Positions 10,255 through 50,443 of a stretch of DNA of 64,000 bases are shown piece by piece. The notes beneath the pieces were generated by a model. It ran no database searches. It was not told where the DNA came from and saw only the letters and a program-made list of their open reading frames with translations. The DNA comes from Jiangella gansuensis DSM 44835. GTDB lineage: Bacteria; Actinomycetota; Actinomycetes; Jiangellales; Jiangellaceae. Within the stretch, counting starts at the first letter, position 1; every line of letters starts with the position of its first letter. The stretch covers positions 4,458,697 to 4,522,696 of the forward strand of contig NZ_KI911782.1 in NCBI RefSeq assembly GCF_000515395.1, in the 5' to 3' direction. The position numbers and the translations under genes are program-made.

Positions 10255-11580
10255 ATGACCGTCACCAGAACGACACCCGACTCCCGGACCGCCGAGACCA
10301 CCCAGGTCCTTGCCGCCGATGCGCCGGCATTCGAGAACGTGAAGCCGCCGTGGGAGCCGCGCGACGGTCTTCGGATCACCGGGGTGCGGGCCATCGCCAC
10401 CGCGCCCGGCGGCACGCCGCTGGTGATCGTGCGGGTCGACACGAACGAGCCGGGTCTGTATGGGCTGGGTTGTGCGACGTTCACCCAGCGCTGGCACTCC
10501 GTGGTGGCCTACGTCGAGCAGCACTTGGAGCGGCTGGTCGTCGGGCGGCACCCGGCAGACATCGAGGACATCATCCGTGCGGTGCACTACGGGAGCTAAT
10601 GGCGGGCAGGGCCGGTGGGCAACAACGCGCTGTCGGGGCTGGATATGGCGCTGTGGGACATCGCGGGCAAGCGGGCCGGGATGCCGGTGTACGAGCTGCT
10701 GGGTGGGCGGGTCCGCGCGGCGGCGGCCACTTACATTCACGCCGGTCGGGCGACGGTCGGGGAGACGTTCGACGATGCGCGCCGGTTCATCGAGGCCGGC
10801 TGGACGCATGTGCGGTTGCAGGTGGGGCAGCCCGGTCTCGGCACCTACGGTGCGCCCGGGGCGCGCGGCGGGTACCCGGACGCGCCGAACCCGGACGGGT
10901 GGAGCGTGCAGCGTTACCTGCGCACCACGCCGGAGTTGTTCGCGGCGGCTCGTGCGGAGCTGGGCGAGGAGGTGGAGTTGCTGCACGACGTGCACTCGCG
11001 GCTGACGCCGAAGCAGGCGGTGTTGCTGGCGCGGTCGCTGGAGCCGTACCGGTTGTTCTTCCTGGAGGACGTGGTGGCGCCGGAGTATTTCGACCGGTTG
11101 CCGGAGGCGCGGGCGGCGTCTCCGGTGCCGTTGGCGGTGGGGGAGTTGGCGACGTCGTTCACTGATGCGGTGCGGCTGGTCCGCGACGGTGGGGTGGACC
11201 TGATCCGTTGTCACATCTCCGCGATCGGTGGGCTGTCGCCGGCGCGGAAGCTGGCGGTGCTGGCCGAGCTGACCGGGGTGCGCACGGCGTGGCATTCGCC
11301 GGCGGACGTGTCTCCGATCGGTGCCGCGGCCAACGTGGCGCTCGACGTCACGTCGGCGGCGTTCGGGATCCAGGAGGGCCATGTGTATCCGGAGCCGGTG
11401 CACGAGGTGTTCCCGGGCACGTTGCGGATCGAGCGGGGCTGGCTGCGGCCGAACGAGGCACCGGGCTGGGGCATCGACCTGGACGAGAAGGCCGCCGCCC
11501 AACACCCACCGGGTCTGGCGCGCATGGACGAGTGGGTGCTGGGCGTCCGCGGCCCGGACGGCGGCTTCTTCGCGCCGTGA
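10255..11580 (+). pseudogene. mandelate racemase/mannonate dehydratase-like gene with in-frame TAA
   Basis: The frame encodes an enolase-superfamily enzyme similar to RspA/ManD-type D-mannonate dehydratases, starting at ATG 10255 after GAAGAGGA. TAA at 10597-10599 sits between HYGS and WRAGPVGNNALSG, where relatives read SYWR; the frame is preserved on both sides, so a single TAC-to-TAA change explains it. Downstream metal-binding elements persist: LLHDVHSR, FFLEDVVAPE and LAVGELAT, then SAIGG and AWHSPADVSPIG. Everything after the stop is intact, which suggests a recent mutation. Restart at GTG 10615 would lack the capping domain. Confidence 0.82.
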
Positions 11581-11601
11581 GCCCGGGATCACCCGCGGGC
11601 T
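11580..11601. terminator. weak GC hairpin between convergent genes
   Basis: AGCCCG and CGGGCT pair across a ten-base spacer, starting at the stop codon of the enolase-superfamily gene and lying before the convergent LacI gene. There is no T-tract, so this is only a tentative terminator. Confidence 0.3.
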
Positions 11602-11618
11602 GCGTCGCTGTGAGCCGG

Positions 11619-12632
11619 TCAGGCCGACTCGCGGCGGCGCAGCTGCGCCGAGAAGACGACCTCCTGCGGGTCGGGCGGGCCCTCGCCTGCGATGCGCTGG
11701 AGCACCAGTCGGCCGGCGGCGTGCCCGATCTGGTGCGACTGGTTGGCCATGGTGGTGAGCTTCGGGGTGATCAGCCTGGCCGCCTCGATGTCGTCGAACC
11801 CCATGACGGCGATGTCGTCGGGGATCCGCAGCCCCCGGGCATGGGCGGCGCCGATGGCGCCGATCGCGACGACGTCGTTGGTGGCGATCACGGCGTCGGG
11901 TGGTTCCGGCAGATCCAGCAGGGCGTTCATGCCCTGGGCGCCGCCGTCGCCGCTCACTGGCGCGCGCAGGAGCAGGTCGGGTTCTGCCGGGATGCCCGCC
12001 TCGTGAAGCGCGGCGCGATAGCCGTCGACGCGCACCGCGGGCGCGCCGCTGCCGGCCGGCGCGGTGATGAACCCGATGCGCCGATGGCCGCGGCCGATGA
12101 GGTAGCGCGTGGCCTCGGCGCCGCTCTCGTGGTCGGCGCCGTTGACGACGTCGTACCCCTCCTTCGGCCGGTGACTTCCGAGCAGGACGACAGGTATGCC
12201 GACCGACACGGCCGGCCGGATGTCTTCCTGATGCTGGTAGTACCCGGAGAAGACGATGCCGTCGACCCGTCTCTTCACGAGCTGCTCCACGGTCTTGCGC
12301 TCGAGATCCGGGTTCGCGTCGGTGTTGCAGACGATGCCGAAGTACGTATCCGCCTGGATGGCGTCCTGCAGGCCGCGGGCCACGGAGGTGTAGAAGGGGT
12401 TGGTGATGTCGGGGATCACCAACGCGATGGTGTTCGTCCGCTGGCTGCGCATGCTGCGGGCCAGATCGTTGGGCTGATAGCCCAGCTCGGCGATGGCGTC
12501 GAGCACCCGCTCCCGGGTGGCCGCCGAGACCGGCCGGCGCTGGCTGAGAGTGTGCGAGACGGTGGTGACACTCACGCCTGCCAAAGCCGCGACGTCGATG
12601 ATGCTGGCGTGGCGACGGCGCTGCACGGTCAT
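11619..12632 (-). CDS. LacI-family transcriptional regulator
   Basis: A 337-residue LacI/PurR-type regulator. The N-terminal helix-turn-helix and hinge read ASIIDVAALAGVSVTTVSHT and PNDLARSMRSQRT; the periplasmic-binding-like effector domain has LVIPDITNPFY and the C-terminal VMGFDDIEAARLITPKLTTM. ATG 12632 follows GAGGTGGG. It is divergent from the large protein at 12723 and convergent with the enolase-superfamily gene, so it most likely senses a sugar or sugar acid for this locus. The 90-bp gap with the divergent gene contains the small palindrome TATCGATA at 12669-12676, a possible operator core. Confidence 0.87.
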   Translation of the reverse strand: MTVQRRRHASIIDVAALAGVSVTTVSHTLSQRRPVSAATRERVLDAIAELGYQPNDLARSMRSQRTNTIALVIPDITNPFYTSVARGLQDAIQADTYFGIVCNTDANPDLERKTVEQLVKRRVDGIVFSGYYQHQEDIRPAVSVGIPVVLLGSHRPKEGYDVVNGADHESGAEATRYLIGRGHRRIGFITAPAGSGAPAVRVDGYRAALHEAGIPAEPDLLLRAPVSGDGGAQGMNALLDLPEPPDAVIATNDVVAIGAIGAAHARGLRIPDDIAVMGFDDIEAARLITPKLTTMANQSHQIGHAAGRLVLQRIAGEGPPDPQEVVFSAQLRRRESA

Positions 12633-40443: not shown

Positions 40444-41457
40444 TCAGGCCGCTGCCGACTCGCTCGTCGACGCGGATGTCGGGCGGCGCGACCGGCGGCG
40501 ACGGCGGAGCCTGACGACGACGGCCAGGACCAGCGCGCCCAGCACCGCGAGAACCACCCAGGGGACGGCCCACACGTGGCCCCCGGCGGAACCGGAGGCG
40601 GGCGGCGGTTCGAGGAGTTGGTCGCCGGACGACTCCGGCTGGACGGTCACGTCGACGTCGAGCCGGACCAGCGGCCACACGCCGTCGACCACCGCCGACG
40701 TCGTGACGGAGTCGCCGGGGAGCAACTCGGGGAGCAGTTCGCCCGTCACCTCCCGCGCGCCGAGCCCGAACGGGCCGGCGACGCGGACGGTGGGACGCCC
40801 GGACAACCTGACGTTGCCGGTGTTGCGGACGGTGTAGTCCACCCGGATCTCGCCGGGGGCACCGACCGGAAGGCCGGAGAACGAGGCGTGGACGTCGGTC
40901 ACGTCGAGGCGGGGGTCGAGCGTTCCGGACACGCGGACGTAGATGCGGGCGCCGACCCGCCGGTCGACGGTCACCTCACCGGACGAGAGGCCGCCCGGCT
41001 CGGTGGCCAGGCTCGCTACGATGCCGCCGGCGTGATCGCCGGGCGTGGCGTTGGCCGGGACCCTGATCCGGAACGGGACGTCCACGCGAGAGCGCGCCGG
41101 GACGGTCAGCGGTGTCTCGTCGAGAACCACCCAGCTTCCGACCTCGATGGGCTCCTTGGCCGCCGGTAGCAGGTCGAACCCGCCGTTGGTGCTGCGCACA
41201 GCGTCGTGGGCGTAGACGGTGAGGGTGAGCGGCCGTTCCGAGTAGTTGGCGACCGCCACCACGTCGGTGCGGGATGCGCCAGGGTCCAGGACGAAGTCGA
41301 ACGCGCCGCGGTCGCCGGGACCCTCCGGCCCGGACGGGACGATGCCCCACGTGAGCGGGGCCGCGGATTCCGGTGGCTCGTCTCCTGCGACATCCGAGGC
41401 GGTCGCCCAGGAAGCGGCGGCAAGCGCGCCTGCCAGCAGATGACGAAGCAGCGTCAC
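40444..41457 (-). CDS. DUF916/WxL-interacting-type peptidoglycan-binding membrane protein
   Basis: A 337-residue exported protein. Signal peptide at residues 1-25; LTWGIVPSGPEGPGDRGAFD with FVLDPGASRTDVVAVANYSE is the DUF916 (WxL-interacting protein, peptidoglycan-binding) start, followed by PLTLTVYAHDAV and a second Ig-like domain. A C-terminal helix (VWAVPWVVLAVLGALVLAVV) and Arg-rich tail fix it in the membrane. GTG 41457 follows GGAG. It is second in the leftward arm of the locus, behind a hairpin after the WxL-like wall protein. In Firmicutes DUF916 proteins hold WxL proteins at the wall, which matches its neighbour here. Confidence 0.75.
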   Translation of the reverse strand: MTLLRHLLAGALAAASWATASDVAGDEPPESAAPLTWGIVPSGPEGPGDRGAFDFVLDPGASRTDVVAVANYSERPLTLTVYAHDAVRSTNGGFDLLPAAKEPIEVGSWVVLDETPLTVPARSRVDVPFRIRVPANATPGDHAGGIVASLATEPGGLSSGEVTVDRRVGARIYVRVSGTLDPRLDVTDVHASFSGLPVGAPGEIRVDYTVRNTGNVRLSGRPTVRVAGPFGLGAREVTGELLPELLPGDSVTTSAVVDGVWPLVRLDVDVTVQPESSGDQLLEPPPASGSAGGHVWAVPWVVLAVLGALVLAVVVRLRRRRRSRRPTSASTSESAAA

Positions 41458-41484
41458 GAGGGTCTCCGGTGGTCGAGGTCGTGT

Positions 41485-41519
41485 GTGGGACGGCCGGTCG
41501 CCTGGGCCGGCCGCCCCAC
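41485..41519 (-). terminator. 13-bp hairpin between wall protein and DUF916 gene
   Basis: GTGGGACGGCCGG and CCGGCCGCCCCAC pair with one mismatch around a nine-base loop. It starts 18 bases after the stop of the wall-protein gene and 28 bases before the DUF916 start, so it probably lowers expression of the second gene. Confidence 0.65.
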
Positions 41520-41536
41520 GCGGGTGGTTGACGTGG

Positions 41537-43027
41537 TCAGATGGCGGTGAAGGTGATCACGGCCTCATAGGTGCCCGGCGTCAGGGTGGTCGGCGCTTCG
41601 ATGCGCAGACCCGCGCCGAGTCGGCTGGTGCCGGTGCCCGATCCGGGCGGGGCGCTGGCCAGAGGGCTGCTGGCGGTCAGGCCGTCACCGGCCGGGTACC
41701 CCGGTGCGACAGCGGTACCCGGCGTGACGTCGCCACCATCGGGCTGGCCGGCGACGTTCGGGGTCCAGCCCAGGTGTCCGCCGGGCAGGACGTCGTCGCC
41801 GGCGACGAAGTCACCGACCTGACCGGACACCACCCAGCCAGGTGCGGTGGCGCGGGTGTCGGTGACGGTGACCGGCCGCAGTTCACCGGCCGAGGTCCAT
41901 CGGTCACCGGCGGAGCTGAGCTCGAAGTCGCTCATCAGGACCTCGTTGTCCTCCGGGTCGAGACTGACCACCAGGGCGCCTTCGTCCTCCGGCAGCGTCG
42001 CGACGATGCGCTGGGACAGTGCCGGCGGTTCCGGGTCGGTGTGATCGTCGACGGCGACAGTCACCGGCGCGGATTCGGCCACGACGGCGTGGTCGTCGTC
42101 GTAGAGCCTGGCGATGATCTCCAGCCCGTCGTGTTGCGCGGTGGCGGTGAAGCTGTACTCACCGGTGCCGGCATCCGGGACGATCAGCCAGTCCTCGGTC
42201 CCGGGTGCGCGGGTGAACCAGTGGTAGTGGTCCAGCTCGGTCTGCGGGTCCTGCACCGCGGTGAGTGTGACGACGTCGCCGGTGTGGTAATGCCCGGCCA
42301 GGCCGGAGATGCTCAACGTGGTCGCCGGATCCGGGTCGGGGCCGGGGTCGACGCCGTCGCCCACCTGGAAGGTGTACGTGACCGGCGAGCTCGTGGCAGT
42401 GCCACCGGCTGCCAGGTCTCCGGCCGCCTCGACGGTGAGGCGGTAGGTGCCCTCGGCCGTGAAGGCCCAGTTGGCGTGGGCATGGACGTTGACGTTGGCC
42501 GGGATGGTGCCGGGGAGCTGGTGGCCGCCGCCGGCGAGGACCGGCAGCGACTGGCCGAACGAGCCGGTCTGCCAGAGGAAGACGTCGCCTGGGCCGTCGA
42601 CGTCGGTGATCTGGATGCGCAGCGGATTGGTGAAGACCCCGGCGGGCAGGCTCTCGGTGCTCCACCCGGGCCAGATCAGCTCCTGGTCCTGCGTCTGCGG
42701 AAGGTAGTAGACGGTCTCGCCGGCGTCGCCGAGAAAGGCGAGGCTCTGTGGAACCGGGTCCGGGAGGGTCAGCGCAGCTTGGGGCTTGACCTGCAGCAGA
42801 ACGTCTTCGGGAGCATGCCGGACGTGGTGCCCGGTGACGTCCTCCTGAAGCTCGACCACCAGCTGGTCGTTCTCCCATAGCAGCGCGAAGGCATCGATGT
42901 GGCCGTGGTCCAGGACCAGGTCGAACTCGCCGGCCGTGGCGCTTCCGGCAGCTCCGGTCGCCAGTACCGCACCGGCGACGATCGGGACGGCCAGCCTTCT
43001 GGCGCGTCGGGTGAGCAGTGTCGTCAT
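41537..43027 (-). CDS. choice-of-anchor M wall protein with WxL-like C-terminus
   Basis: A 496-residue secreted protein. Signal peptide to about residue 32; residues about 35-225 are one anchored-repeat module (DLVLDHGHIDAFALLWENDQ, then VNVHAHANWAFTAEG and VTYTFQVGD); about 228-325 is an Ig/PKD-like domain; 330-496 resemble a WxL domain: VTVTDTRATAPGWVVSGQVG and GGHLGWTPN give the two tryptophans, ending in VITFTAI. There is no LPxTG motif or C-terminal helix, so anchoring would be non-covalent to peptidoglycan, aided by the DUF916 protein. ATG 43027 follows GAGAGGA. It is divergent from the main wall protein across Zur-like boxes. Confidence 0.8.
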   Translation of the reverse strand: MTTLLTRRARRLAVPIVAGAVLATGAAGSATAGEFDLVLDHGHIDAFALLWENDQLVVELQEDVTGHHVRHAPEDVLLQVKPQAALTLPDPVPQSLAFLGDAGETVYYLPQTQDQELIWPGWSTESLPAGVFTNPLRIQITDVDGPGDVFLWQTGSFGQSLPVLAGGGHQLPGTIPANVNVHAHANWAFTAEGTYRLTVEAAGDLAAGGTATSSPVTYTFQVGDGVDPGPDPDPATTLSISGLAGHYHTGDVVTLTAVQDPQTELDHYHWFTRAPGTEDWLIVPDAGTGEYSFTATAQHDGLEIIARLYDDDHAVVAESAPVTVAVDDHTDPEPPALSQRIVATLPEDEGALVVSLDPEDNEVLMSDFELSSAGDRWTSAGELRPVTVTDTRATAPGWVVSGQVGDFVAGDDVLPGGHLGWTPNVAGQPDGGDVTPGTAVAPGYPAGDGLTASSPLASAPPGSGTGTSRLGAGLRIEAPTTLTPGTYEAVITFTAI

Positions 43028-43060
43028 CACGATCCTCTCTGTCGGAGATCAACACACTAA

Positions 43061-43165
43061 TGAGAATCGTTACGATTAGCAACGATTGTCTCGCGGTGCT
43101 GCGGGGCGGACGGCAGAAGTGACAAGAGTGAGAATCGTTATCTATAGTACTGAGAACGCTTCGCA
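43061..43165. promoter_or_regulatory. divergent promoter with three Zur-like boxes
   Basis: TGAGAATCGTTACGA (43061), TGAGAATCGTTATCT (43129) and TGAGAACGCTTCGCA (43151) resemble the actinobacterial Zur/Fur box TGANAATNATTNTCA. The first contains the near-palindrome AATCGTTACGATT. The stretch is AT-rich relative to its surroundings and serves both arms of the locus, leaving the boxes over the start regions of each. Zinc-responsive repression is an inference. Confidence 0.65.
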
Positions 43166-43187
43166 TCTATGAGGAGACGACGTTCGC

Positions 43188-46175
43188 ATGCGACGATCCA
43201 TGCTTCAGGCGGCCGCGGCGGGGGCAGGCGTTGCAGCGCTCCTGTCAGCTCCGGTCGTCGCCGGACTCTCGGCCAGCGCCGACCCCGGTTTACCGCCTGC
43301 CCCGACCGAGCGCCGACTGCTCACGACCGAGCACGTCGACGCCATCAACGTCGGGTTCGACGGCGACCGGCTCACGGTGAACTCGAAGATCGGCCCACCG
43401 GCCGAGTACGCCGCGGTCGACGACCTGATCTTCCACCTCTCGGACCTCGGGCGGGTGGAAGGTCTGCCCGCGCACTACACCGAGTTCATCGGGACCAGCG
43501 ACGTCTGGCTGGTTCCCCAGACCCAGGATCCCGACGTCCTGTGGGCGGGCTGGAGCACTGAAGAGATCGGCTCCGGGGTGGTCGATGGCGACGCCGTGGA
43601 CGTCACGCTGACCGACGTCCGTGGGCCCGGCGAGGTCGAGGTGTGGCAGACCGTCGGGTTCGGAGAGATCAGCCGGATCTTCAGCTCCGACGAGGACTTC
43701 TCGACGCGGCGCCAGGGCGTCAACGCGCACGTGCACGCCAACTGGGCCTTCACCCAGCCGGGGGTCTACACGCTCTCGTTCACCGCGTCCGCGACGGTCG
43801 GTGGCCAGCCGGTGACCTCCGACCCCGTCGACTACACCTGGGTGGTGGGCGGTGAGCAGGGTACGTTGCCGACGCCTGCGACGTCCATGACGACCCTGAC
43901 CGCACCGGCGACGGCGGCCGTCGGCCAGGAGACCGTCCTGGAGGTCGACGTCTCCACGGACACCGGCGACGGCGCGCCGCCCGCTCCTGGTGGCCATGTC
44001 GAGTTCCGCCGCGGCGACGCGCTGCTGGGCTGGACCGGCCTGACGGACGGCCGGGCCACCCTCCCGGTCACGTTCGACGAACCCGGCGAGCACACCATCA
44101 CCGCGACGTACACACCGCAGGAGCGGCAGTTCTACGCGACGTCCGCTTCGCAGCCCGTGGTCGTCACGGTCGAGGGCGCGGAGCCGGGGACGGAGGCCGG
44201 CGGTGACGACCAGGGGACTGAGACGGGTGGCGAAAATCCGGATGATCCTCCGGGCCAGTGCGAGGACCCCCGCACGGTGCTGACCGACGAGCACGTCGAT
44301 CTGCTCGCGCCGGTGCTCGACGGCTCTGCCTTCGGCCTGCGGGCGAAGGTCGGTACGGCCACAGACCACACGTTCTATGACCCCGCCGACCTACTGGTCC
44401 AGGTGAAGGACCCGGAGGCGGCTACCGCCGTCCCCGACGGTCCCGAGTACGCGTTCCTGGGCGAGGCCGGCGAACCGCTGTGGCTGATCCCGCAGGCCCA
44501 GGACCCGAACGTGGTGTGGGCGGGCTGGTCGACCGAGGAGCTGGCACCGGGCGCCTTCGCCGGCGACGCGGTCGAGTTCGCCCTGGTCGGCGTGGAGGGG
44601 CCCGGTGACGTCGAGGTGTTCCAGACGGGGAGTCTGGGCTCGGCGCCGACAAGGATCTTCAGCTCCGTCGACCAGCTGGAACCACGCAGCCAGAGCGTGG
44701 GTCAGCACGTCCACGCGAACTGGGCGTTCACCGAGCTCGGCGAGTACACGGCCACCTTCGAGGTCAGCGGGACACTCACCGGCGGCCAGAGCGTGACGAC
44801 CGGCGAGGTCGCCTACACGTTCGTGGTCGGCGACCTGGCGTGCGACCCCGGTTCGCCCGGCGACGAGAACGGCACCGACGCGGGCGGCGACGCGAACGGC
44901 ACTGACACCGGTGGTGACGCGAACGGCACCGACACCGGTGGTGACGGGAACGGCACCGACACCGGCGGCGACGCGAACGGCACCGACACCGGCGGCGACG
45001 CGAACGGCACCGACACCGGTGGCGACGCGAACGGCACCGACACCGGAGGTGACGCGAACGGTACCGACTCCGGTGACGACGCGAACGGCACTGACACCGG
45101 TGGCGACGCGAACGGTGCCGACGACGGTGGTGACGGGAACGGCACGGCCTCCGGAGGCGACGGCGCCGGGCCCAAGCCCACGACGAAGCCGACGAGTGAC
45201 GTCTGTGTCCCCGCGCGTCCGACCTCGGCTCCGTCGGGATCGTCGACCACCCCGAACGGCGGTGGCACCCAGGCGCCGGACGGCGGCGGCGGCGACCAGC
45301 CCAGCGACTCGGTCGTGCTGACGAACGAGCACGTCGACCTGATCTCGCCGCGGCTGGAGGGTTCCAGCCTGTTCCTCGAGGCCAAGGTGGGAACGGCTGC
45401 CGAGCACACGTTCTACGACCCGGCGAACGTCCTGGTCCAGGTCAAGCCTGAGGCCCAGAGCACCGTTCCGGAGGGGGAGACGTACGCGTTCCTCGGCGCC
45501 GCCGGCGACCCGATCTGGCTGATCGGCGAGACCCAGAACCCGGACGTCGTCTGGGCGGGGTGGTCCACCGAGCAGTTGGCCGCCGGCTCGTTCCAGGCCG
45601 ACGCGGTGGACATGACGCTGGTCGACGTCGAGGGTCCCGGCGTGGTGGAGGTCTTCCAGAGCGCCGGGTTCGGCGATGTGAACCGCATCTTCAGCTCCGA
45701 GGAGGCGTTGGATCCCCGGCACCAGAGCGTGGGTCAGCACGTCCACGCGAACTGGGCGTTCACCGCCGAGGGGAGTTACACGCTGACCTTCGAGGTGAGC
45801 GGGACGCTCGCCGACGGTCAGAGCGTGACGACCGGGCCGGTGGAGTACTCGTTCGTCGTCGGTGACGTCGCCGGCGCGCAGGGGGCGTCGGCGACCCGGT
45901 CGGCGGACGGCGTGGTCCGCCCAGCCGTGTACGTCCCCGCGGCCGACGGGGTCGTGGTCCGGGCCAGCGCCACGCCGACGCCCAGCGCCACGCCGTCGTC
46001 GACACCACGTGCCACGCCGTCGTCGAGCAACACGGGTCAGGACGACGAATGTGCCCTGGCGAGCACCGGGTCGCCGTCTGCCCTTCCCGCCTTGGCGGTG
46101 ATGGGCGGGCTGCTCGTGGTGAGCGGAGCCGTGGCTTCGGCTTCCTACTGGAGGAGCCGGCGCAGCACGCCGTGA
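43188..46175 (+). CDS. LAxTG-anchored wall protein with three anchored-repeat (choice-of-anchor M) modules
   Basis: A 995-residue surface protein. After a signal peptide, modules lie at about 43-225, 355-550 and 705-900; each opens with EHVD, contains VWAGWSTE and the HVHANWAFT core and ends in Y-T/S-F-V-V-G. An Ig-like domain lies at about 229-330 between modules 1 and 2, and an Asp-Gly-Asn-rich stalk of eleven nonapeptides at 559-657 between 2 and 3. The C-terminus CALASTGSPSALPALAVMGG, a helix and YWRSRRSTP form an LAxTG class-E-type sortase signal. ATG 43188 follows GAGGAG. It matches the putative wall repeat protein of anchored-repeat ABC loci. A hairpin after its stop separates it from the transporter genes. 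Confidence 0.87.
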   Translation: MRRSMLQAAAAGAGVAALLSAPVVAGLSASADPGLPPAPTERRLLTTEHVDAINVGFDGDRLTVNSKIGPPAEYAAVDDLIFHLSDLGRVEGLPAHYTEFIGTSDVWLVPQTQDPDVLWAGWSTEEIGSGVVDGDAVDVTLTDVRGPGEVEVWQTVGFGEISRIFSSDEDFSTRRQGVNAHVHANWAFTQPGVYTLSFTASATVGGQPVTSDPVDYTWVVGGEQGTLPTPATSMTTLTAPATAAVGQETVLEVDVSTDTGDGAPPAPGGHVEFRRGDALLGWTGLTDGRATLPVTFDEPGEHTITATYTPQERQFYATSASQPVVVTVEGAEPGTEAGGDDQGTETGGENPDDPPGQCEDPRTVLTDEHVDLLAPVLDGSAFGLRAKVGTATDHTFYDPADLLVQVKDPEAATAVPDGPEYAFLGEAGEPLWLIPQAQDPNVVWAGWSTEELAPGAFAGDAVEFALVGVEGPGDVEVFQTGSLGSAPTRIFSSVDQLEPRSQSVGQHVHANWAFTELGEYTATFEVSGTLTGGQSVTTGEVAYTFVVGDLACDPGSPGDENGTDAGGDANGTDTGGDANGTDTGGDGNGTDTGGDANGTDTGGDANGTDTGGDANGTDTGGDANGTDSGDDANGTDTGGDANGADDGGDGNGTASGGDGAGPKPTTKPTSDVCVPARPTSAPSGSSTTPNGGGTQAPDGGGGDQPSDSVVLTNEHVDLISPRLEGSSLFLEAKVGTAAEHTFYDPANVLVQVKPEAQSTVPEGETYAFLGAAGDPIWLIGETQNPDVVWAGWSTEQLAAGSFQADAVDMTLVDVEGPGVVEVFQSAGFGDVNRIFSSEEALDPRHQSVGQHVHANWAFTAEGSYTLTFEVSGTLADGQSVTTGPVEYSFVVGDVAGAQGASATRSADGVVRPAVYVPAADGVVVRASATPTPSATPSSTPRATPSSSNTGQDDECALASTGSPSALPALAVMGGLLVVSGAVASASYWRSRRSTP
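44862..45158 (+). repeat. eleven tandem 27-bp repeats encoding DxNGTDxGG
   Basis: Eleven in-frame nonapeptide units, consensus DANGTDTGG, with changes only at positions 2, 5, 6, 7 and 9 (DEN, DGN, DSGD, GADD, GTAS). Most copies of GACGCGAACGGCACCGACAC are near identical at the DNA level, so copy number should vary between strains. The unit is acidic and flexible, a wall-spanning stalk or a low-affinity cation binder. Confidence 0.9.
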
Positions 46176-46244: not shown

Positions 46245-47849
46245 ATGAGGACGGGTCAGATGTTGCTCTCGATGCGTCGCGCGGCACGGGTCGCGGCCGT
46301 CGCGGTGCTGGCTTCCGCACTCGCCGGGTGCGCGACGAACGGGTTGAGCGTTACGGATGACCGTCTCCAGGTCATCACCACCACGGGCCTGTTGGCCGAC
46401 CTGGCCAGGAACGTCGGAGGCGACCGGGTGAACGTGAACTCCCTGGTGCCCGGCAGCGCTGACCCGCACTCGTACGAGCCGAGCCTGCGGGACATCCGCA
46501 ACGTCGTCTATGCCGACGTCGCCTTCAGCAACTACATGCTGCTCGAGGAGCAGAGCATCATCAAAGCGCTGGACGCGAACCTGCAGGAGGGCGTGCCGAA
46601 CGTCTCGCTCGCCGAGGGCGCGGTCAAGTACGCCGCCGAGATCATCCCGCTGGTGGAGAACGTCGCGCTGGACACCGTCTGGTTGGGCATGCGGGTCCGG
46701 GGCACCGGCGCGGAGTACGGCGCGAACCGGTCCTCGGACGTCTACCTGAGCGGCACCGAGGTGAACGGGCCCGGCGACCTGGTGACCTACCTGACCGAGT
46801 CCTTCGGCAACCCGACCTTCTACGTGAACTCCGCCGACGGGTTCGACGCCTCCAACGGCTACAAGGACGACACCGCGACGCTGCCGCCCGATGCGCACAC
46901 CCACATGAGCTGGGCGTTCACCGAGCCGGGTGTGTACACGCTGACGTTGTCCGCGAGCCTGGCCGTCACGTCCGACGCCAAGCCGATCCCGCTGGGGGAG
47001 GAGACCTTCACGTTCGCCGTGGGGGTCGACCCGCACTCCGTGCCCGGCATGGACGGCGCGGACGTGCTGGACGCCGGTCATGCTGATATCACGGTCGACC
47101 TCGACCAGAGCGGATTGTCGATCCTCGCCGACCCGCACGGTGGCGGCGATGCTCACCACACCGTTCACGACCCGGCCGCCACCGTGATCGAGGTCCCGAA
47201 CAAGGCGCTGCACGACGTCCCAGCGGACCCGGGGTTCCGGTTCCTGGGCCGTCCGGGGGAGCAGATCTTCCAGCTGCCGCAGGCGGTGTTGGGCAAGCAC
47301 GTCCACGGCGAGATCGATCCGCACCTGTGGCAGAACGTCCGCAACGTGATCTCGTACGTCGAGCTGATGCGCGACACCCTGGCCGGCGCAGACCCGGAGG
47401 GTGCCCGTGAGTACCGGGACAACGCGCGCGCCTACATCGCCGAGCTGGAGGAACTCGACGCCTACGTCCGCGAGACCATCGCGGAGATCCCGGCGTCGCG
47501 GCGGCACCTGATCACCACTCACGACGCGTTCGGCTATCTCGGCGCCGCGTACGGGGTGGAGATCTCGGGATTCGTCACGCCCAACCCGGCCGCCGAGCCG
47601 AGCCTGACGGACCGCCGCAAACTGGCGGAGACCATCCGCAACCTGGACCTCCCCGCGGTGTTCCTCGAACCCAACCTGATCGCACGTTCCTCGACGCTCA
47701 CCGAGGTCGCCGACGACGTCGGGGTCGCGGTCTGCACGATCTACGGCGACACGTTCGACGACGCCGTCTCCGACTACATCTCGATGATGCGATTCAACGC
47801 CGAGTCGCTCCGAACCTGCCTGGCCGATCCACCGGAGAGGGACGAATGA
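46245..47849 (+). CDS. anchored-repeat ABC transporter metal-binding lipoprotein (ZnuA-like) with inserted module
   Basis: A 534-residue lipoprotein, lipobox LAGC with C29. Residues 40-135 and 350-530 make a ZnuA/TroA-type cluster A-I binding protein. Ligands are H75 (DPHSYEPS), H360 (IDPHLWQN), H426 (LITTHDAFGYLG) and D502 (IYGDTFDDA): three His plus Asp favours zinc over manganese. About 210 residues (137-350) are inserted; they contain the anchored-repeat core in unusual order, with GPGDL...AHTHMSWAFTEPG first and GHADI...FRFLGRPGEQIFQLPQ second. Extra histidines (ADPHGGGDAHHTVHDP) lie there. ATG 46245 follows GAGG. It overlaps the next gene by ATGA. Confidence 0.87.
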   Translation: MRTGQMLLSMRRAARVAAVAVLASALAGCATNGLSVTDDRLQVITTTGLLADLARNVGGDRVNVNSLVPGSADPHSYEPSLRDIRNVVYADVAFSNYMLLEEQSIIKALDANLQEGVPNVSLAEGAVKYAAEIIPLVENVALDTVWLGMRVRGTGAEYGANRSSDVYLSGTEVNGPGDLVTYLTESFGNPTFYVNSADGFDASNGYKDDTATLPPDAHTHMSWAFTEPGVYTLTLSASLAVTSDAKPIPLGEETFTFAVGVDPHSVPGMDGADVLDAGHADITVDLDQSGLSILADPHGGGDAHHTVHDPAATVIEVPNKALHDVPADPGFRFLGRPGEQIFQLPQAVLGKHVHGEIDPHLWQNVRNVISYVELMRDTLAGADPEGAREYRDNARAYIAELEELDAYVRETIAEIPASRRHLITTHDAFGYLGAAYGVEISGFVTPNPAAEPSLTDRRKLAETIRNLDLPAVFLEPNLIARSSTLTEVADDVGVAVCTIYGDTFDDAVSDYISMMRFNAESLRTCLADPPERDE

Positions 47850-48820
47850 GCAGCGAACCACGCCGCGCGCGGACGAGAGCGATCGGCACGGCGGTCACGG
47901 CCTCCATCCTGACGCTGGCCGTACCGGCCGCGGCGGCCGGGTCCGAGGACCCGGCCTTGGACCAGCAGATCGATGCCGATCAGTCGATCGCGACCGAACC
48001 CGCGGTGATCAGTGAGGGCCACGTCGACCTCGGGCCGCGGTACGTCGACGGCGAGTGGACGCTGCTGGTCCACGACGACAGTGCCGTCCCCCCGGTGTGG
48101 AGGCCGATGGACAGTGCGGTCTTCCAGATCACCGACGCCGCGCTCACCACCGTCCCGGACAACCCGGACTACGCGTTCCTGCCGGCCGAGCCCGGTTCCG
48201 ACGTCCACGTGGTGCCGCAGGCGCAGCAGCCCGGCGTGGTGTGGGTGGGCTGGAACACCCAGGACCCAGCTGTCCTGGACACCATCGACCGCGGGGCCAC
48301 GCTGACTCTGCACGGTGTGGAGGGTCCGGGCGAGGTGGTGATGTTCCTGCAGAGCGGCACCCTGGGCGGGCCCGAGGTGCTCTGGGACAGCCGTGATGCA
48401 TACCCGCAGGACCTGTGGGTCGAGATGAACACCCACACGCACGCCAACTGGGTGTTCTCCGAGCCTGGGGTCTACCTGGTCGAGGTCGAGGTGTCGGCCG
48501 ACCTGGTCTCCGGGGAGAGCGAATCCGACACCCAGGTGCTCCGGTTCGCCGTCGGCGACCAGACCAGCACCGACGACGCGCTCGCGGCGGACTACGTGCC
48601 GGCCGGCGGAACCGGCGAGGACGCGGCCGCCGCACCGGACGACACCACTGTCGACGATCAGGACGACTCCGGCCTGCGGGCCGGACTGCTGACCGCCGTG
48701 GCCGTGGCGGCGATGCTGGCCGTCGCGCTCGTGGTCGTCTCGGTCCGTGGCCGGCGTGCGAAGCGGCGGGCAGAGGACGCGCGGGCCGGCTCGGGAGCGT
48801 CCGCGGGGGACGGATCGTGA
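47846..48820 (+). CDS. membrane-anchored anchored-repeat (choice-of-anchor M) protein
   Basis: A 324-residue exported protein. Signal peptide to about residue 32; one module at about 45-240 (AVISEGHVDLGPRYVDGEWT, VVWVGWNTQDPAV, then MNTHTHANWVFSEPGVYLVE); an Asp/Ala-rich linker; and a C-terminal helix (AGLLTAVAVAAMLAVALVVV) with a basic RGRRAKRRAED tail that keeps it in the membrane without sortase. Its ATG overlaps the lipoprotein gene stop and its own end overlaps the ATPase GTG. It would stand between wall modules and the transporter. Confidence 0.85.
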   Translation: MSSEPRRARTRAIGTAVTASILTLAVPAAAAGSEDPALDQQIDADQSIATEPAVISEGHVDLGPRYVDGEWTLLVHDDSAVPPVWRPMDSAVFQITDAALTTVPDNPDYAFLPAEPGSDVHVVPQAQQPGVVWVGWNTQDPAVLDTIDRGATLTLHGVEGPGEVVMFLQSGTLGGPEVLWDSRDAYPQDLWVEMNTHTHANWVFSEPGVYLVEVEVSADLVSGESESDTQVLRFAVGDQTSTDDALAADYVPAGGTGEDAAAAPDDTTVDDQDDSGLRAGLLTAVAVAAMLAVALVVVSVRGRRAKRRAEDARAGSGASAGDGS

Positions 48821-49560
48821 CCGTCCTGCAGGTGGAGCGGCTCAGCGTGGCGCTGGGTGGCCGCCCCGTCCTGCACGACGTGGGCCTCAGCGTCGACGCC
48901 GGCGAGTTCGTCGGGCTGCTCGGCCCCAACGGTGCCGGGAAGACCACGCTGATCCGCGCGGTCCTGGCGTTGATCCGTATCTCGTCCGGGCGAGTACTCG
49001 TCGACGGCCGGCCCTCGAGGCCCGGGCGCTCACCCATCGGGTACGTGCCGCAGCGCCACGAGTTCGCGTGGGACTTCCCGATCTCCGTCGAGAACACGGT
49101 GATGACCGGTCGCAACGGTCGCATCGGTGTCTTCCGCCGGCCGGCGGTGGGTGACTGGACGGCCGTGGGCGATGCGCTGGAGCGGGTGGGGATGAGCGAC
49201 CTGCGGCACCGGCCGGTCGGCGAGCTCTCCGGCGGCCAGCGCCAGCGCGTGCTGGTGGCGCGAGCGTTGGCTCTGCAGCCCAGCGCGCTGCTGCTGGACG
49301 AGCCGTTCACCGGTCTGGACATGCCGACGCAGGAACTGCTGAACCAGCTGTTCCTGGAACTGTCGGTCGAAGGAAAGGCCGTCCTGATGACGACGCACGA
49401 TCTCCTGGGCGCGATGGAGTCCTGCACGAGGCTCGCCCTGCTCAACCGGACCGTCGTCGCCGACGCACCCCCCGACGAACTCCTGGACCGCGGTCCGTGG
49501 ATGCGGACGTTCGGCGTCGGGGAGAACAGCCCGCTGCTGAAGATCCTGAAGGCGGTCTGA
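48817..49560 (+). CDS. anchored-repeat ABC transporter ATPase
   Basis: A 247-residue metal-type ABC ATPase: Walker A GLLGPNGAGKTT, Q-loop YVPQRHEFAWDFP, signature LSGGQRQRVLVARAL, Walker B ALLLDEPFTGLD and H-loop MTTHDL. It is closest in type to ZnuC/MntB-class ATPases. GTG 48817 overlaps the upstream stop (GTGA), giving a 247-residue product; the frame is open further upstream only as a shadow of the previous gene. It energises the permease four bases downstream. Confidence 0.9.
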   Translation: MTVLQVERLSVALGGRPVLHDVGLSVDAGEFVGLLGPNGAGKTTLIRAVLALIRISSGRVLVDGRPSRPGRSPIGYVPQRHEFAWDFPISVENTVMTGRNGRIGVFRRPAVGDWTAVGDALERVGMSDLRHRPVGELSGGQRQRVLVARALALQPSALLLDEPFTGLDMPTQELLNQLFLELSVEGKAVLMTTHDLLGAMESCTRLALLNRTVVADAPPDELLDRGPWMRTFGVGENSPLLKILKAV

Positions 49561-49564
49561 GCGC

Positions 49565-50443
49565 GTGCCGATCACCGATTTCATCAACGACCTGCTCAAC
49601 CCCGACCTCGCCTTCCTGCCCAAGGCGCTACTGGTGGCGGTGATGTCGAGCATCGTGTGCGGCGTCGTCGGCTGCTACGTCGTGCTGCGCGGGATGGCGT
49701 TCATCGGCGACGCCGTGGCGCATGCCGTCTTCCCCGGCCTGGCGGTGGCGTTCGTCATCCAGGGCAGCCTGGTCATCGGCGGCGCCGTGGCTGGCGTGAT
49801 CACGGCGCTGTTGGTGGCGGTGTTCTCGCAGAACCGCCGGATCAAGGAAGACTCGATCATCGGCGTGTTCTACGTCGCGGCGTTCGCGCTGGGCATCGTC
49901 ATCATCTCCCAGGCACCCGGCTACGCCGGCTCGTTGCAGCAGTTCCTCTTCGGCTCCATAACCGGCATCCCGGACGAGGACATCTTCGTCGTCGGCATCA
50001 CCGGTGCGCTGCTCCTGGCGGTGGTGTTCCTCTTCCACAAGGAGTTCGTCGCCGTCAGCCTGGACCGGGAGATGGCCCGCGCTCTGGGCATGCGGGTGTT
50101 CTGGCTGGACATCGTGCTCTACGTCATGGTGACCGTGGCGATCGTCATCTCCGTGCAGACCATCGGCAACATCCTCGTGCTGGCGTTGCTGATCACGCCC
50201 GCCGCGGCGGCGCGGCTGCTCACGGATCGACTCGCCGTCATGATGCTGCTCGCCCCGGTCGTGGGCGGGACGTCGGCCGTGCTCGGGCTCTACCTGTCGT
50301 GGAGCTACGACCTGCCCGTCGGCGGCACGATCGTGCTGGTGCTTACAGCCGTGTTCCTGCTCGCGTGGACCTTCGCCCCGCGCCACGGCCTCATCGCCAA
50401 ACGCTGGCGGCAGGCCGCTGTCAGTTCCGTGGCGCCCGGATGA
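49565..50443 (+). CDS. anchored-repeat ABC transporter permease (ABC-3 family)
   Basis: A 292-residue permease of the ZnuB/MntC class with about eight helices. GMAFIGDAVAHAVFPGLAVA is the conserved first-loop motif, and DREMARALGMRVFWLDIVLY with NILVLALLITPAAAARLLTD are the ABC-3 coupling and core signatures. GTG 49565 starts four bases after the ATPase stop. It completes the zinc/manganese importer of the locus; the downstream methyltransferase has its own ribosome site and is probably separate. Confidence 0.9.
   Translation: MPITDFINDLLNPDLAFLPKALLVAVMSSIVCGVVGCYVVLRGMAFIGDAVAHAVFPGLAVAFVIQGSLVIGGAVAGVITALLVAVFSQNRRIKEDSIIGVFYVAAFALGIVIISQAPGYAGSLQQFLFGSITGIPDEDIFVVGITGALLLAVVFLFHKEFVAVSLDREMARALGMRVFWLDIVLYVMVTVAIVISVQTIGNILVLALLITPAAAARLLTDRLAVMMLLAPVVGGTSAVLGLYLSWSYDLPVGGTIVLVLTAVFLLAWTFAPRHGLIAKRWRQAAVSSVAPG

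Follow-up and report, generated by a model that had tools for sequence, protein, structure and literature searches.

A putative WxL-like/WxLIP surface-anchor pair beside a probable zinc-starvation locus in Jiangella gansuensis and other actinobacteria

The WxL/WxLIP (csc) clusters of Lactobacillales and Bacillales are the closest described relatives of a gene pair in Jiangella gansuensis DSM 44835, which we analysed within a 64,000-nucleotide stretch of contig NZ_KI911782.1 (hereafter the window). The pair encodes a wall protein, in which a choice_anch_M domain is followed by a C-terminal WxL-like domain (P0006), and a WxLIP-like partner carrying a DUF916 domain (Table 1). It resembles the csc clusters in placing a WxL-homologous domain at the C-terminus of a large secreted protein, and in the adjoining DUF916 protein with its C-terminal membrane helix. 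It differs from them in that Trp-x-Leu triads, the distal Trp, its xxxP ending and a DUF3324 match are missing, that no small WxL gene was found, and that the pair lies beside a metal ATP-binding cassette (ABC) locus with Zur-type sites. This is an anchored-repeat ABC locus (TIGR03769–TIGR03773; troA-dip0445 in Corynebacterium diphtheriae), with the same repeat-inserted substrate-binding protein, ATPase, permease and choice_anch_M wall proteins; compared with such loci generally, the window is set apart by the one wall protein that bears a WxL-like domain and is partnered by WxLIP. New here is a WxL-like/WxLIP anchor that has no Trp-x-Leu triads, counts one detected domain to each partner in this genome, and adjoins a probable zinc-starvation locus.

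We favour the interpretation, with a probability of roughly 0.7, that the gene pair is a surface-anchor cassette in which the WxLIP-like protein tethers the WxL-like domain of the wall protein under zinc starvation. The wall protein would bear its probably metal-handling choice_anch_M domain on the C-terminal beta-sandwich, and the partner would be held in the bacterial membrane by its C-terminal helix, with an Arg-rich tail inside. By binding the WxL-like domain the partner would retain it at the surface, probably much as periplasmic chaperones complete pilins, with a beta-strand of its own filling out the sandwich. During zinc starvation the cassette would be made together with the anchored-repeat ABC transporter, and it would take the place of the sortase signal, transmembrane helix or lipid anchor found on the other choice_anch_M proteins of the locus.

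The pairing of the two domains is evident in two surveys. Among 42 fetched loci (blastp, E<=1e-5; some flanks short), all 25 that hold the domain have WxLIP in the locus, compared to 0/17 of those without it; in one locus (L042) the WxLIP gene lies beyond the permease rather than adjoining the domain gene. Across 296 genomes of the class, which the domain and PF06030 surveys are taken to cover alike, the domain occurs in 65, PF06030 in 61 and both in 54 (Fisher 4e-40, relatedness not corrected), and at least 62 of the 78 PF06030 matches over cut-off have the domain less than 1.5 kb upstream on the same strand. The genera searched in this class number 114, of which 27 include the domain. In the genome that also contributed locus L026, a further choice_anch_M–WxL and WxLIP pair (L105:8746-10626 and 10648-11781) is found some 6.5 kb past the ABC permease. 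On these locus and genome counts the pairing is real and is an established actinobacterial module rather than an isolated case; the suggestion of the original prediction, made from the window's letters, that an essentially low-GC pair had been recruited singly here is not supported. Three counts run the other way: 11 of the 65 genomes with the domain have no detected PF06030, seven of the 61 with PF06030 have no domain, and PF06030 occurs elsewhere in four of 16 genomes whose fetched loci are without the domain, one of the four being that of L026, where it belongs to the further pair. With this last count, a general absence of WxLIP from species in which the choice_anch_M loci carry no such domain proved too strong a proposal.

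In the window's genome we found a single homologue of the domain (all 55 candidates scored; 12 of 92 in another survey) and one PF06030 match; WxL clusters as defined in the literature have one WxLIP and at least two WxL genes, a number not found in this genome, where very divergent WxL genes could escape detection. Other genomes of the class (G256, G187, G147, G225 and others) hold at least 5–12 copies of the WxL-like domain each (at most 12 candidates scored per genome), several of them in open frames of approximately 210–290 residues that are perhaps counterparts of small WxL proteins.

The alternative that survives best, which we regard as possible, is that the C-terminal domain itself binds peptidoglycan or wall glycans, with WxLIP either stabilising it as an accessory or binding the wall separately. 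Firmicutes WxL domains bind peptidoglycan non-covalently, also in trans (PMC5817068), and the Pfam name of the WxLIP domain is itself peptidoglycan-binding. However, the tight pairing with WxLIP suggests dependence, and the motif residues of the Firmicutes domains are partly lost here.

Besides the window's wall protein, we scanned eleven proteins from loci L105–L130, nine with both Pfam and NCBIfam, one with NCBIfam only (L105) and one with Pfam only (L127). The WxL-like domain is fused to choice_anch_M in three (L114, L115, L105), to HtaA, which binds haem, in two (L116, L127) and to purple acid phosphatase and metallophosphatase domains in four (L118, L122, L124, L125); the scan gave no match for the remaining two (L117, L119). 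Judged by these family matches, the WxL-like anchor is common to metal-, haem- and phosphate-related ectodomains. Many of its carriers belong to what we take to be environmental genera. The neighbourhoods of actinobacterial genes for the copper protein Ang-2, which include DUF916 and metallophosphatases, likewise place DUF916 in Actinomycetota beside metal-dependent proteins; a WxL-like fusion and a zinc locus are not described in the accessible part of that article (PMC12537917).

The resemblance of the C-terminus to Firmicutes WxL domains, from which the original prediction began, was borne out by profile–profile comparison. In hhalign, an alignment of 30 domains (P0006 and 29 relatives, after omission of four of the 33 listed: a second L005 copy, L003 with its end out of pattern, and the divergent L051 and L058) matched an independent alignment of 13 WxL domains from named Firmicutes plasmids at 96.2% (E 2.1e-9, 119 columns). 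One of the 14 references for the latter was omitted (the large-WxL end L065:6934) and a broken frame (L069) was not used. Two controls against the same Firmicutes alignment, the WxLIP alignment and a six-copy choice_anch_M alignment, scored 0.1% and 0.2%; since these controls are clean, we take the C-terminal domain to be homologous to WxL. The Pfam WxL family PF13731 is matched by 21 of the 30 aligned domains at E<=0.1 (best 1.2e-6), and three paralogues from the same genus, 44–47% identical to P0006, score 26.5, 24.8 (25.7 with frame neighbours) and 21.6 bits around its cut-off of 25.

The coordinates, the gene order and the three segments that had been picked out (GWVVSGQ, LGWTPN and TDTRATAPGW) were all located, the segments in the C-terminal part. 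Of the first WxL motif, the Asp at W-8, the Arg at W-6 and the Gly-Trp pair are present in 30/30 aligned members, and these are positions named in the WxL literature (PMC9772566; PMC1534035). The two divergent sequences outside the alignment, L051 and L058, have Ala in front of this Trp. LGWTPN, the second of the two tryptophan motifs claimed, is conserved within the subfamily but is not the second WxL motif; the counterpart of the distal motif YxxxLTWxLxxxP is YEAVITFTAI, with the Tyr and the (L/I)T pair in every aligned member and Phe in place of Trp in the window's protein, which terminates without the xxxP. As neither Trp-x-Leu triad is kept, the domain is best classed from its residues as a homologous WxL-like variant and not as canonical WxL.

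Several results tell against a WxL assignment. Position W+2 of the first motif is Ala in 17 members, Val in 10, Thr in three and Leu in none, and the distal Trp is found in 0/30 (Leu 22, Phe 8). P0006 alone scores only 15.1 bits with PF13731 (12.4 for the whole protein), below the cut-off, and a search of the PDB with the profile of the 30-member alignment matched no WxL chain. A phmmer search of the PDB with P0006 alone gave a single match (E 0.84), the Pfam WxL family matched nothing in the window's genome at E<=0.001, and a near-identity DNA search of plasmids with a distant actinobacterial WxL locus gave no match. The sub-threshold Pfam score, the missing triads and the lack of a WxL match in the PDB would all suit a sandwich of Ig-like or pilin-like kind that resembles WxL without being related to it, with the DUF916 neighbour as a general Ig-like stabiliser, but we consider this improbable in view of the hhalign match (E 2e-9) with its two clean controls and of same-genus paralogues that score 26.5 bits and, once frame neighbours are included, 25.7 bits.

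The adjoining gene encodes, as had been predicted, a DUF916 protein with a membrane helix. PF06030 is matched at E<=0.01 by 28 of 29 aligned WxLIP members (from 30 references, with L050 and L052 omitted), and the profile of this alignment matches the solved EfmWxLIP1 (E 5.5e-5). The model of the WxLIP-like protein, with a predicted local distance difference test (pLDDT) score of 85.6, comprises two beta-sandwich domains, the second of them Ig-like, followed by the helix and an Arg-rich tail. In structure it is matched best by 9i25_C and 9i1y (VIA Z 12.8 and 12.7), with root-mean-square deviations (rmsd) over both domains of 9.6 (232 aligned) and 9.2, respectively. Entry 9i25 is titled in the PDB as WxLIP bound to long WxL; our literature search found no paper describing it. 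The segment aligned with the N-terminal WxLIP motif NQIDKxxxYFDLK has different letters. A point against equating the partner with WxLIP is that the DUF3324 host-binding domain gave no family match at E<=0.01 in the 29 members.

Judged by eye, an Arg-rich tail follows the helix in nearly all 29 aligned members. Such a tail would fit the bacterial membrane, positive side in, better than insertion into a host membrane, and because it recurs after the helix we place the helix in the former. That the helix instead enters the host membrane, making the pair an adhesion device as in gut bacteria, is a published proposal for WxLIP (PMC10599100) but is very unlikely here, given the Arg-rich tail and the occurrence of the domain across 27 genera with metal-, haem- and phosphate-related domains.

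How the cassette might hold together is suggested by the predicted folds. By title, 32 of the best 50 VIA rows for the AlphaFold2 (AF2) model of the WxL-like domain (pLDDT 91.8) are chaperone-usher subunits (Z 5.9–8.2), including two FimH lectin domains, and cannula and TLP filaments are also among the matches listed. Domain 1 of the WxLIP model matches the chaperones FimC, Caf1M and CsuC (Z 9.3–10.0; for FimC 3bwu_C Z 9.8, rmsd 3.1, 110 aligned). Published AF2 complexes of Firmicutes pairs place a strand of a WxLIP hairpin parallel to a WxL strand, completing the WxL sandwich (PMC10599100). We infer a donor hairpin in the last two strands and intervening low-confidence loop of domain 1 (Table 1), at a position chosen by analogy with the chaperone-usher chaperones. 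Taken together, the folds and the published complexes suggest a WxLIP that serves WxL in the manner of a pilus chaperone serving its pilin, except that it would be membrane-tethered and its action permanent. The window pair is like the chaperone-usher pairs FimC–FimH, CfaA–CfaB and Caf1M–Caf1 in the predicted folds of both partners and in the strand donation proposed; it differs from them in that no usher or polymer is known and the partner is membrane-tethered, the likeness is not specific, and we claim no homology. Donor-strand exchange between Gram-positive surface proteins is reportedly found in the TasA filaments of Bacillus subtilis, although TasA self-assembles into a matrix fibre whereas the window pair would be an anchor pair. 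The literature search listed one paper, a 2013 review, in which WxL and a donor strand both come up.

Against this mechanism, a Foldseek search of the domain model found nothing in the PDB at E<=0.001 (best 1.4e-3, the pilus subunit CfaB), and 9i25_A is not among the best 50 Foldseek or VIA rows. The original prediction had put its WxL claim at the mercy of profile or structural similarity; profile similarity was found, but the solved WxL domain is not among the structure matches listed. Sandwich domains of GH123 glycosidases tie with the pilins and chaperones (Z 6.7–7.1 for the WxL-like domain, 9.9–10.2 for WxLIP domain 1), so the likeness is not specific; weak points are also that the PDB is redundant for type 1 pili and that Ig-like folds readily match one another. 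We propose only tentatively that WxL/WxLIP may be a Gram-positive donor-strand-complementation anchor, with a tethered chaperone counterpart and a pilin-like acceptor, that, as an alternative to sortase, could serve interchangeably for actinobacterial scavengers of zinc (choice_anch_M), haem (HtaA) and phosphate (purple acid phosphatase).

The zinc setting of the cassette is read from candidate operators and from a characterised relative. A Zur-type consensus, TGANAAYSRTTNTCA, was written after viewing the upstream regions, guided by actinobacterial Zur boxes, and three of its four sites in the window with up to two mismatches fall in the 158-bp stretch 43031–43188. In 11 of 26 upstream regions (the window, Jiangella, Actinophytocola and Actinoplanes-group loci) the site was equalled in at most one of 200 shuffles. 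Throughout the window's genome (5.59 Mb, one contig), TGANAAYSRTTNTCA with at most one mismatch occurs in six places, one perfect and five with one mismatch including the window site; a reversed control pattern gave one match per strand. The perfect match (L092) lies 22–36 nt ahead of where a ZnuA gene (PF01297, 271 bits) probably starts; this gene is followed by an ABC ATPase gene. The pattern RWTAACGRTTNTCAYT with at most one mismatch matched the window site only. Genes for ribosomal proteins L28, L33 or S14 flank 17 of the 25 loci with the domain, and from missing cysteines in three seeds we read these proteins as the zinc-free type; in the stretch around the cysteine-free L33 gene of the window's genome (L099), no site was closer than two mismatches. 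In the homologous troA-dip0445 cluster of C. diphtheriae, promoter fusions showed repression by zinc and Zur (PMC6711530). Together, the Zur-type sites and the Corynebacterium cluster suggest a zinc-starvation setting for the locus, in which Zur would act on the divergent region. An invariant HxH common to the six choice_anch_M copies of the window is compatible with metal binding by this domain.

Three observations weaken the zinc reading: the four one-mismatch places in the genome besides the window site, the L28, L33 or S14 genes that also flank four of the 17 domain-free loci, and the 15 of 26 upstream regions where no site clearly beat the shuffles (12 to 200 of 200). In 13 of those 15 regions an S14 gene (12) or a permease gene (one, L020) lies directly upstream, so the wall-protein gene may be operon-internal there; in L017 and L021 the permease gene lies about 600 bp away. 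We found no report of an actinobacterial WxL/WxLIP zinc locus in a literature search at the level of titles and the start of abstracts that covered few subscription journals.

The placement of the pair beside an anchored-repeat metal ABC locus holds, with TIGR03770, TIGR03771 and TIGR03772 co-occurring with choice_anch_M proteins, all above cut-off. The wall-protein and WxLIP genes lie on the same strand, WxLIP downstream across a 79-nt gap, and a divergent region of 160 bp separates the former from the plus-strand ABC locus; a GTG at 43030, one codon 5' of the ATG, is an alternative start. With the sortase-type, lipid and transmembrane anchors read from the protein sequences, the choice_anch_M domain seems to be held here by four kinds of anchor, the WxL-like domain being the fourth. 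Another choice_anch_M protein (L038:2376-4595) has a C-terminus that by eye resembles an SLH repeat, a further anchor type. Within the gene for the 995-residue wall protein, a 27-bp tandem repeat (44859-45162, 11.3 copies) encodes a linker of (NGTDTGGDA) type that separates choice_anch_M copies. By wall protein, the nearest named relatives are Jiangella (74–75% identity), in which the gene for a WxL-tailed 1009-residue protein is divergent from the counterpart of the 995-residue protein gene. A swap of the WxL tail onto that counterpart was considered and ruled out, as the best counterpart (L007 14783-17470) retains LASTG.

Table 1. Coordinates of the anchor pair, its motifs, candidate operators and neighbouring genes in the window
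Feature	Position	Strand	Basis or remarks
WxLIP-like partner, 337 aa	40444..41457	-	signal peptide, PGBD (DUF916), second Ig-like domain, transmembrane helix, Arg-rich tail
Transmembrane helix of WxLIP-like protein, residues 300-323	40489..40560	-	model
Proposed donor hairpin, residues 140-176 (last two strands of WxLIP domain 1 and low-confidence loop)	40930..41040	-	model; inference
PGBD/DUF916 match in WxLIP-like protein	41017..41304	-	PF06030 WxLIP_PGBD, 41.4 bits, cut-off 27.3, E 1.7e-10
Wall protein gene	41537..43027	-	496 aa from ATG at 43027; signal peptide, choice_anch_M, linker, C-terminal WxL-like domain
WxL-like C-terminal domain P0006, ~165 residues	41540..42046	-	hhalign, Pfam below cut-off, AF2 model
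YEAVITFTAI, counterpart of distal WxL motif, Trp to Phe	41540..41569	-	alignment
LGWTPN	41756..41773	-	conserved within subfamily; not second WxL motif
First motif TDTRATAPGW	41834..41863	-	Asp at W-8, Arg at W-6, Gly-Trp
choice_anch_M domain of wall protein	42362..42916	-	NF038134, 173.1 bits, cut-off 55
Zur-type box, 2 mismatches	43061..43075	.	TGANAAYSRTTNTCA match
Zur-type box, 1 mismatch	43129..43143	.	TGANAAYSRTTNTCA match
Zur-type box, 2 mismatches	43151..43165	.	TGANAAYSRTTNTCA match
995-aa wall protein	43188..46175	+	three choice_anch_M domains; LASTG-TM-RR tail (tail read from sequence)
Anchored-repeat ABC substrate-binding protein	46245..47849	+	TIGR03772, 797.7 bits; lipobox read from sequence
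choice_anch_M protein, hydrophobic stretch at C-terminus	47846..48820	+	profile match
Anchored-repeat ABC ATPase	48832..49560 (start approximate)	+	TIGR03771, 362.6 bits
Anchored-repeat ABC permease	49565..50443	+	TIGR03770, 470.2 bits

If the cassette is as we propose, WxL/WxLIP would be widened from a device of gut bacteria to a general actinobacterial surface anchor, for which zinc starvation is a likely physiological setting. The minimal one-to-one pair in the window would be well suited to testing whether a strand is donated and how WxLIP sits in the membrane, and anchoring of this kind may be the function to seek for the DUF916 genes of actinobacteria.

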